Assembly: GCF_030717945.1 (NCBI RefSeq)
Contig: NZ_JAVAIM010000001.1
Span: forward strand, 2,355,131 to 2,419,130
DNA: 64,000 nt
From: Qipengyuania profundimaris
GTDB taxonomy: Bacteria > Pseudomonadota > Alphaproteobacteria > Sphingomonadales > Sphingomonadaceae
Direction: 5' to 3'
In this document: positions 46,983 through 54,007 of the stretch, piece after piece
Layout of the letters: every line of letters begins with the position of its first letter
Position numbering within the stretch: position 1 is the stretch's first letter
The notes under the pieces: model-generated
Database searches by the model: none
What the model was told of the DNA's origin: nothing
The model's input: the letters and a program-made list of their open reading frames with translations, nothing else
Made by a program: the position numbers and the translations under genes

Positions 46983-46999
46983 TTGGCACGGGGTTTGCA
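46983..46999 (+). promoter_or_regulatory. Sigma-54 (-24/-12) promoter of a small membrane protein gene
   Basis: TTGGCACG, four bases, then TTGCA. The GG (46985-46986) and GC (46997-46998) are exactly 12 bases apart, and both boxes match the RpoN consensus fully. It lies in the noncoding gap after astB; transcription would begin near 47010, 24 bases before the GTG of the next gene. Confidence 0.75.
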
Positions 47000-47033: not shown

Positions 47034-47279
47034 GTGCTGACCAAGGTGAAACGGCTGTTCGTGATCAAGACGCGCTTCGAAGCGTATCTGATCATCTTCG
47101 CCCTCGCCTTGGGCGCCATGACCCGCGGCGCGCATTACACGGTCGAATATCCCGGTGTGGGCGGCTATCTGCTGTTTGCCGCGACGGCCGGCGCGGTGTT
47201 CCTCGGCGGCGCGAAAATCCTCGACGCGATCCGATATGAGCGCGAGGCGGCGGCAACCTCTCAGGACAGCGAAGACTAA
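47034..47279 (+). CDS. Small two-helix membrane protein under a sigma-54-type promoter
   Basis: An 81-residue protein from GTG 47034: a basic N-terminus (LTKVKRLFVIKTRFEA), one helix (YLIIFALALGAMTRG), a short loop (AHYTVEYPGVGG), a second helix (YLLFAATAGAVFLGGAKIL) and an acidic tail. GGAGA lies 10 bases upstream. No family with known function is recognised. It is alone on its transcript, between astB and the convergent ssrA. Its position 24 bases behind a near-perfect -24/-12 promoter implies control by RpoN and an enhancer-binding protein. A TTG at 46983 would put the start in the promoter and is rejected. Confidence 0.7.
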   Translation: MLTKVKRLFVIKTRFEAYLIIFALALGAMTRGAHYTVEYPGVGGYLLFAATAGAVFLGGAKILDAIRYEREAAATSQDSED

Positions 47280-52120: not shown

Positions 52121-52148
52121 GAGGGGCCCGACGGCCCCTCCCGGTTTT
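52121..52148 (+). terminator. Rho-independent terminator after the SDR gene
   Basis: GAGGGGCC and GGCCCCTC form a perfect 8-bp stem with a CGAC tetraloop (52121-52140), followed by CCGGTTTT. It lies 40 bases after the stop and also past the end of the facing pspC gene. Confidence 0.8.
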
Positions 52149-52205: not shown

Positions 52206-52427
52206 TCAATCCGCGATCAGCGCGATCGCGAGGTAGATCAGGATGAAGCTGCCGAAACCGAGCAGCGTTCCTGCGACGAAGCCCAGGCGAACCCAGAGTG
52301 CGTCGATGCCGAAGTAGTCGGCGATGCCGGAGCATACGCCCATCAGCTTGCCGTTGCTGCGGTCGAGCGCGAAGCTCTTGGCGGGGCGGACGGCGTGGTC
52401 GGTGTCACGAAATTTCAGGTCGTTCAT
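52206..52427 (-). CDS. PspC-domain membrane protein
   Basis: A 73-residue PspC-domain protein: a polar N-terminus, FALDRSNGKLMGVCSGIADYFGIDALWVR-type core (key residues G-V-C-x-G-I-A-x-Y-F and W-V-R), and one hydrophobic helix (LGFGSFILIYLAIALIA). In E. coli, PspC is a sensor of envelope stress that binds PspA. This protein is shorter than E. coli PspC (119) and lacks its long C-terminal part. Its ATG overlaps the stop of the micropeptide gene upstream (ATGA), and the operon has a sigma-54-type promoter. Confidence 0.88.
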   Translation of the reverse strand: MNDLKFRDTDHAVRPAKSFALDRSNGKLMGVCSGIADYFGIDALWVRLGFVAGTLLGFGSFILIYLAIALIAD

Positions 52428-52540
52428 GCGATCAGTCCATTGGGCGAAGCGGGGATGATGGCCGTGGCGAAGAACACCGCCGAGAGGGCCAGCGAGAAAG
52501 CAGCTGCGAAAAGCTTGCTGGAGTTTTCAGAGTTAAACAT
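52424..52540 (-). CDS. Micropeptide gene B (38 residues), partner of pspC
   Basis: A 38-codon gene too short for usual gene finding. It starts MFNSENSSKLFAAAF and continues with one hydrophobic helix and the end IIPASPNGLIA. AGGAAGG lies 4 bases before ATG, an excellent ribosome binding site, and its stop overlaps the pspC start. It aligns without gaps with micropeptide A over the last 32 residues with 17 identities (shared pattern AAxFxLAxSAV, then AI-PASP). This conservation and the coupling make it a real gene. A single-span inner-membrane peptide acting with PspC is inferred. Confidence 0.75.
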   Translation of the reverse strand: MFNSENSSKLFAAAFSLALSAVFFATAIIPASPNGLIA

Positions 52541-52575
52541 CGTTTCCTTCCTTGTTGATCGAGTTGCGGTCTACG

Positions 52576-52695
52576 TCAGGCGACGAAGACGGCGGGGCTT
52601 GCGGGGACGATGGCCATCGCCATGCTGACGGCCGAAACGGCGAGAGCGAAAACGGCGGCGAGAGCGCGGTTGCTGGCATAATCGAAAGCGGACAT
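52576..52695 (-). CDS. Micropeptide gene A (39 residues), first gene of the pspC operon
   Basis: A 39-codon gene starting MSAFDYASNRALAAVF, with one hydrophobic helix (VFALAVSAVSMAMAIV) and the end PASPAVFVA. AAGGAGA lies 7-8 bases before ATG. It is the first gene after the sigma-54-type promoter at 52775-52759, leaving a leader of about 53 bases. It is a paralogue of micropeptide B, 35 bases downstream. No known Psp protein of this length (PspB, PspD, PspG are longer) is recognised in it. Function unknown; membrane location is predicted. Confidence 0.75.
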   Translation of the reverse strand: MSAFDYASNRALAAVFALAVSAVSMAMAIVPASPAVFVA

Positions 52696-52758
52696 TTGGT
52701 GGTCTCCTTGAACCTTGGTCTGTTGTTTCCCCCGGACCATCCGGGTTGACCAATGCTT

Positions 52759-52775
52759 TGCAGGAGGCGTGCCAA
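52759..52775 (-). promoter_or_regulatory. Sigma-54 (-24/-12) promoter of the micropeptide-pspC operon
   Basis: On the minus strand: TTGGCACG (52775-52768), CCTC, then CTGCA (52763-52759). GG (52773) and GC (52761) are 12 bases apart as required; only one T of the TTGC box differs. Start of transcription near 52748. Upstream at 52813-52794 is TTCAG-N10-CTGAA, a possible activator site. Confidence 0.7.
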
Positions 52776-52894
52776 ACTCGAAAAACCGCAGATTTCAGCC
52801 ATTCTTAACTGAACCGAGCGCCCCAACGCCGTTCATCGATCCGAAAGGTTGGGAAATTTCACCACTTTTTAGAGCCGGGGTTTCGAGTGGCGGC

Positions 52895-54007
52895 ATGACG
52901 CACCGCCCGCTATCGCTGCAGCCGACCATGGCGCTCGATCGAATTGCCCTTTCCGACTTCCGCAATCATGCCGCGACCGAGCTTTCGGGCACGGCGCGCT
53001 TCAACCTGCTGGTGGGCGAGAACGGGGCGGGCAAGACCAATGTGCTTGAGGCGTTGTCGCTCCTGTCGCCGGGCCGTGGCCTGCGCCGCGCCGCGCTGGC
53101 AGACATGGTGCGCGCCGGGAGCCAGGTGGGGTTTACCGTCGCGGCAGGCCTGAAGCAGGACGGCGAGCCTGTGCGCTTGGGCACATATTGCGAAAACGCC
53201 CACCCGGGGCGGCGACGAGTCCGGATCAATGGCTCGGACACGAATGCCACCGCGCTCGGGGAATGGCTCGCAATCACCTGGCTTACGCCGGCGATGGATG
53301 GGCTGTTCACCGGCCCTGCCGCCGACCGTCGGCGGTTCGTCGACCGCATGGCACTCGCGCTGGACCCGGCGCACGCCAGCCACGCCGCGCGCTACGAAGC
53401 GGCGCTGCGCGAACGCAATCGGCTGCTGTCCGACCGGCGCGATCCGGAGAGCGGCTGGCTCGATGCGATCGAGGCGCAGATGGTCCAGCATGGCGGGGCG
53501 CTGATGACGGGCCGCGCGCGCCTGATCGAGACCCTCATGGCGCGCCTTGCTGCCATGCCTGCGGAGCCTTTCGCCCGGCCGGCCATCACCTATGCGCCGG
53601 GCGCGCCGGATAGTCCGGACGGCCTGTCGCAGGCCCTTTACGAAGGACGCAGCAAGGATCGGCTGGCGCAGCGCACGCTATCCGGTCCCCATCGCGACGA
53701 GCTGGAGGTGATCCACGCAGCGAAGCGCGTTCCCGCCGCGCAAAGCTCGACCGGCGAGCAGAAAGCCATGCTGGTGGCGATCACGCTCGCTCACGCCGGG
53801 CTCGCGGCGCAGGGTCGCGCCGGTATCCTGCTGCTCGACGAGGTGGCCGCCCATCTCGATCCTGTCCGCCGCGCCGCCCTGTTCGACCAGCTGCGCGGTA
53901 GCGGCGCGCAGGTCTGGATCACCGGAACCGAGCCTTCCCCTTTCGACACCATCTTGAGTGAAGCGGCGATTTGGCGGATCGCCAACGGTGAGGTCCAGCG
54001 GCTCTAG
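52895..54007 (+). CDS. recF: DNA replication/repair protein RecF
   Basis: A 370-residue RecF, an SMC-like ATPase that loads RecA at gapped DNA. The Walker A motif is VGENGAGKTNVLEALSLLSPGRG, the signature region is SSTGEQKAMLVAITLAHA, and Walker B is GILLLDEVAAHLD. ATG 52895 is used (GAGTGG upstream); ATG 52928 (MALDRIALSDFRN) is closer to the usual family start and is possible. Here recF is separated from dnaA, dnaN and gyrB, as in many Alphaproteobacteria. Its stop shares CTAG with the facing tesA gene. Confidence 0.92.
   Translation: MTHRPLSLQPTMALDRIALSDFRNHAATELSGTARFNLLVGENGAGKTNVLEALSLLSPGRGLRRAALADMVRAGSQVGFTVAAGLKQDGEPVRLGTYCENAHPGRRRVRINGSDTNATALGEWLAITWLTPAMDGLFTGPAADRRRFVDRMALALDPAHASHAARYEAALRERNRLLSDRRDPESGWLDAIEAQMVQHGGALMTGRARLIETLMARLAAMPAEPFARPAITYAPGAPDSPDGLSQALYEGRSKDRLAQRTLSGPHRDELEVIHAAKRVPAAQSSTGEQKAMLVAITLAHAGLAAQGRAGILLLDEVAAHLDPVRRAALFDQLRGSGAQVWITGTEPSPFDTILSEAAIWRIANGEVQRL

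Follow-up and report, generated by a model that had tools for sequence, protein, structure and literature searches.

What is a PspC-domain gene doing at the end of a sigma-54-type operon that begins with two very small membrane peptides, and does this unit belong to the phage-shock (Psp) response? Within the window (the whole 64,000-nucleotide stretch of Qipengyuania profundimaris DNA analyzed here), positions 52872-52206 of the minus strand carry, in this order, an enhancer-like palindrome, a -24/-12 element, micropeptide A, micropeptide B, and a gene for a 73-aa PspC-domain protein, referred to here as pspC2.

Anatomy of the operon

Micropeptide A (MSAFDYASNRALAAVFALAVSAVSMAMAIVPASPAVFVA; 52576..52695, minus strand; 39 aa) and micropeptide B (MFNSENSSKLFAAAFSLALSAVFFATAIIPASPNGLIA; 52424..52540, minus strand; 38 aa) are single-span peptides preceded by the ribosome binding sites AAGGAG and AAGGA, respectively. 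They are paralogues with 47% identity. The start of pspC2 (52206..52427, minus strand) overlaps the stop of micropeptide B (ATGA). These coordinates, ribosome binding sites, and overlap agree with the preliminary description, in which the element was followed by A, B, and pspC, each with a ribosome binding site or a stop/start overlap. Upstream, recF diverges from the operon (ATG at 52928), and downstream an SDR gene converges on it. A GC-rich inverted repeat 3' of pspC2 (52121..52140, from a listing of the plus strand only), convergent with the SDR gene, is a possible terminator, although the number of such repeats is not clearly above that in shuffled sequence and the evidence is weak.

The promoter element (TTGGCACGCCTCCTGCA; 52759..52775, minus strand) reads TTGGCACG-CCTC-CTGCA from 52775 to 52759, and its GG-N10-GC spacing is canonical. 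In the shuffled 64-kb window, ~0.11 such -24/-12 sites are expected; one is observed per strand. A genome lacking rpoN had been named as grounds for abandoning the sigma-54 reading; rpoN is encoded in this genome, so that objection falls. Only six strong sigma-54 activators are encoded. Where the neighbours of the other intergenic sigma-54 matches could be read, we take the genes downstream to be glnK/amtB and rtcB, recognized from their translations without a search. A further sigma-54-like site in the window (TGGCACGGGGTTTGCA; 46984-46999, plus strand) precedes an ORF at ~47034-47279 for an 81-aa two-span membrane protein without a Pfam match, and no PspF-type enhancer was seen at this site. 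Elsewhere, a sigma-54-like site (TGGCACGCTCTGTGCA; G000 C1:2514709-2514724, minus strand) is without a clear downstream gene and may possibly serve a short gene missed by annotation, or a small RNA.

A new family of membrane micropeptides

No Pfam or NCBIfam family matched micropeptide A or B, as anticipated when they were first called undescribed, and neither matched the PspB family (PF06667). They form a new family. Among 17 close relatives, pN/pS was 0.38 in frame for micropeptide A (1.06 and 2.06 out of frame), 0.28 for micropeptide B (1.53 and 1.69 out of frame), and 0.23 for pspC2; over the three genes the other two frames ranged from 1.06 to 2.1. Together with the conserved arrangement, this frame-controlled constraint marks the peptides as real genes and not chance frames, in line with the coding status first proposed for them. 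An RNA element or attenuator was considered and set aside, with no Rfam match around the operon. AF2 predicted one helix for micropeptide A (residues 3-32; mean pLDDT 72).

Micropeptides were called automatically in related loci (see below) as an ATG with a ribosome binding site and a hydrophobic stretch. This yielded 127 peptides in 70 loci, with one peptide in 15 loci, two in 53, and three in 2. Among the 117 distinct peptides, 105 positive charges lay on the N-side of the hydrophobic core and 1 on the C-side, an asymmetry which predicts an N-in/C-out topology. The C-terminus was near-invariant and took the form [GS]-hydrophobic-hydrophobic-[AIV]. The last residue was Ala, Ile, or Val in all 127 peptides, position -3 was hydrophobic in ~125 of 127 at any linker length, and position -4 was Gly, Ser, or Thr in 114 of 127. 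In distant genera, A is as similar to B as to A, and similarity is higher between the A and B of a single locus. The copies therefore arose, or were homogenized, lineage by lineage, a pattern suggesting that peptide dose matters.

Conservation among the Sphingomonadales

A PspC search returned 80 relatives, 73 of which, spread across the Sphingomonadales, carried the unit divergent from recF. All 73 recF-linked relatives had an upstream sigma-54 element, and 70 of them had one to three micropeptides. In other genomes, some of them from species already in the first set, 13 of 16 additional pspC2 loci also combined a sigma-54 site, one or two micropeptides, and PspC. The operon, with its predicted sigma-54 promoter and coding micropeptides, is strongly supported by this comparative evidence. 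By our count, 113 of 137 genomes from this family carried a second PspC, compared with 11 of 61 outside it. Higher numbers also occurred: one genus (g13; G086, G089, G093, G190, and other members) has four PspC domains per genome, and another (g6) has up to three, with tandem pspC genes ~600 bases apart in G095.

A predicted PspF-type enhancer precedes the promoter

When the upstream regions of 72 relatives were aligned without gaps at the -24 element, a conserved CCAAaagTTGGtgAAatttcCCAA emerged at -98 to -75. At the locus studied, the corresponding predicted PspF enhancer, or UAS (CTAAAAAGTGGTGAAATTTCCCAA; 52849..52872, minus strand), follows the consensus CCAA-N3-TTGG-N9-CCAA with differences at 2 bases. 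The strict pattern occurs perfectly once in the 2.95-Mb genome, in the pspF-pspA intergenic region. A degenerate second copy lies 20 bases before the perfect one at the same -98 offset, measured from the pspA operon's own sigma-54 element (12/12). A matrix built from pspC2 promoters alone placed the pspF-pspA gap at rank 1 in 8.2 kb. Applied to the E. coli psp stretch (5.5 kb), the same matrix ranked first TTAGTGTAATTCGCTAA in the pspF-pspA gap, which we take to be one of the two enhancers of PspF. The score of this 17-mer was matched by 9 of 2000 shuffles of the gap. The TTrG-N9-CyAA half-site lies at -91 in the pspC2 operon, -81 in E. coli, and -71 at pspA, offsets which are one helical turn apart. 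The E. coli pspF-pspA gap contains two PspF enhancers (PMC3709507).

The strict pattern served poorly as a genome-wide regulon finder when 2 mismatches were allowed, as 56+65 sites (~120) were hardly above the control (51+46). Since the UAS of the window itself differs at 2 bases, the case for it rests on position and conservation. The PspF encoded beside pspA shares 48% identity with its E. coli counterpart. With the promoter, the PspF-type enhancer (recognized by sequence), rpoN, and pspF all present, the unit has the features of a member of the PspF/sigma-54 regulon. The shared enhancer, the half-site offsets, the identity of PspF, and the presence of rpoN together support control of the micropeptide-pspC2 operon by PspF well at the sequence level, and from these we infer PspF/RpoN dependence. 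The distribution of regulator genes was uninformative, because rpoN and a PspF-like match occurred in all 198 genomes.

PspC2 is a PspC without its tail

PspC2 matched PF04024 (65.5 bits against a cut-off of 25; E=3.8e-18), whereas its score against the PspC equivalog TIGR02978 was 57.7 bits, under the cut-off of 104. PspC2 can be aligned to the PspC domain in the 124-aa PspC from the pspABC operon and ends after the membrane part; the latter protein runs ~60 residues further. PspC2 is thus without the C-terminal cytoplasmic PspA-binding domain. An AF2 model of PspC2 was of modest quality (pLDDT 71) and was not used as evidence. In Yersinia, PspA is bound by the C-terminal domain of PspC, and protection by PspBC does not require PspA (PMC5596341). 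With this PspA-binding tail missing, PspC2 should have an effector role in the membrane, not a regulatory one towards PspF.

The main psp operon lies elsewhere in the genome

The preliminary description had pspA and pspB absent and the two peptides in their place ahead of pspC. The absence holds for the locus at 52206-52775, but not for the genome. A complete operon, with pspF divergent from pspA-pspB-pspC, lies ~96 kb from the window locus, and its PspB matches PF06667. Replacement of PspA and PspB by the micropeptides was therefore rejected, as both are encoded elsewhere along with pspF. Short peptides also head both PspF-type operons, which argues against substitution for either protein. 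In Sphingomonadaceae, most of the genomes inspected have a pspA operon whose first gene, directly after the sigma-54 element, encodes a single-span peptide of 46-61 aa (MYDRSFFRTQLGQAALASIVAMSAF...VEIA). Its tail (VEIA/VELA) is unlike that of the pspC2-type peptides, and homology between the two types was unsupported (HHalign probability 5%).

Two further features of pspA operons were observed. Elsewhere in the order, other families have an operon that starts with a different ~55-aa peptide (MNILTHVGAALSS...RQRRRDRNRR) just upstream of pspA (L166-L171), often with an Arg-rich C-terminus and belonging to no Pfam family. Downstream of pspC, the main psp operon encodes five consecutive small membrane proteins, each ~100 aa long (L084:5872-7433; G000 C1 ~2505571-2507132) and with a tail resembling RVLERIVTD...EIEALRD. 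The first of the five matches PspB (E=3.6e-6), and the array is a predicted pspB-duplication array; pspB duplicates have been reported in other genomes (PMC11237479).

A probable second Psp transcription unit

The proposed link to the Psp response is strongly supported by the comparative evidence, and we consider it probable that the operon is a second transcription unit of this response in Sphingomonadaceae, contributing PspF-switched peptides and a tail-less PspC. Under envelope stress, PspBC of the main operon would draw PspA off PspF. The freed PspF would bind the palindrome at 52872-52849 and loop to sigma-54 RNA polymerase at 52775-52759. Stress would thereby induce the three-gene operon, yielding two paralogous inner-membrane micropeptides (N-terminus in, C-terminus periplasmic) and PspC2, which, without a PspA-binding tail, would serve the membrane as an effector and would not regulate PspF. 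The micropeptides would most likely act in the same membrane as PspC2, as small subunits or membrane stabilizers, and repeated tandem duplication would raise their dose. The conserved operon structure is the basis on which PspC2 becomes a candidate physical partner of the peptides. Against this model, the unit encodes no PspB, while the known protection by PspC is that of PspBC.

A more tentative reading makes the micropeptides a standing part of the Sphingomonadaceae Psp response. The peptides heading both operons would be co-subunits of a PspC complex and would stand in for PspB in the second unit, with the conserved periplasmic tail as a recognition signal.

It is unlikely, although somewhat less so than the readings that follow, that the micropeptides are independent membrane-active stress peptides of the YohP/TisB kind, which would rigidify the membrane or lower its potential while PspC2 limits the damage. 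Their size, single helix, and stress-type promoter are consistent with this, and repeated tandem duplication again suggests that dose matters. In E. coli, the small stress-induced membrane protein YohP causes the membrane potential to fall and PspA/PspC to be induced (PMC12719787). However, no Rfam element lies near the operon, co-conservation with PspC is strong over 73 loci, and membrane activity alone leaves the conserved C-terminal motif unexplained.

That motif could also be a tag through which a periplasmic protease of the PDZ type binds or cleaves the peptides, which would then connect the Psp response with envelope proteolysis as signals or adaptors. The invariant Ala, Ile, or Val end, the hydrophobic -3 position at any linker length, and the predicted C-out topology fit such a tag. 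We nevertheless find this reading doubtful: no protease partner was identified, so short and hydrophobic a tail could be embedded in the membrane, and the pspA-type peptides end differently.

Activation of the sigma-54 element by NtrC, NtrX, or an unassigned activator instead of PspF is improbable. The genome does encode six strong activators, but the enhancer is shared with the organism's own and the E. coli pspF-pspA gaps, and the sigma-54 sites at glnK/amtB and rtcB adjoin genes of the NtrC and RtcR pathways. Least credible is the view that the two frames encode mere leaders, which would set the translation or attenuation of pspC and have no function as peptides; both frames precede pspC, and the overlap of B with its start suggests translational coupling, but constraint on the protein extends over the full length, the hydrophobic core and C-terminus are conserved, copy number varies from 1 to 3, and an Rfam element is lacking.

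Relation to known Psp systems

Like the PspF regulon of E. coli and Yersinia (pspABCDE, pspG), the pspC2 unit combines a sigma-54 promoter, an upstream PspF-type enhancer, and a PspC-domain protein, and it resembles pspG as an unlinked extra PspF target. It differs in its one to three leading micropeptides, which include no known Psp family, and in its tail-less PspC beside recF; as far as tested, it is specific to Sphingomonadaceae. PspC2 shares the domain of PspC (PF04024; TIGR02978) but is 73 aa long and without the tail. The small membrane proteins that E. coli induces under stress, YohP among them, are likewise very short, single-span, and tied to membrane stress. No sequence relation to YohP was shown, and the sphingomonad peptides share an operon with PspC under a PspF-type enhancer.

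Surveys of Psp systems (Ravi et al. 2024, PMC11237479; a 2022 phyletic survey, PMC9239133) report pspC neighbourhoods that lack PspA, multiple paralogues of PspC, and duplicated pspB genes, and the main text of neither mentions sphingomonads or micropeptides. Within the open-access literature searched, no paper dealt with PspC in Sphingomonadales beyond listing it. Marine and soil Sphingomonadaceae carry an apparently undescribed second phage-shock branch by recF, composed of one to three peptides and a shortened PspC.

A natural tail-less PspC would allow the effector role to be separated from the regulator role, which bears on how PspC protects membranes without PspA. The system is compact, with tiny membrane peptides tied by synteny to this PspC under the same PspF-type enhancer. 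To the well-studied Psp response, the unit adds a new small-protein family, and it does so in bacteria whose family is large and of ecological importance.
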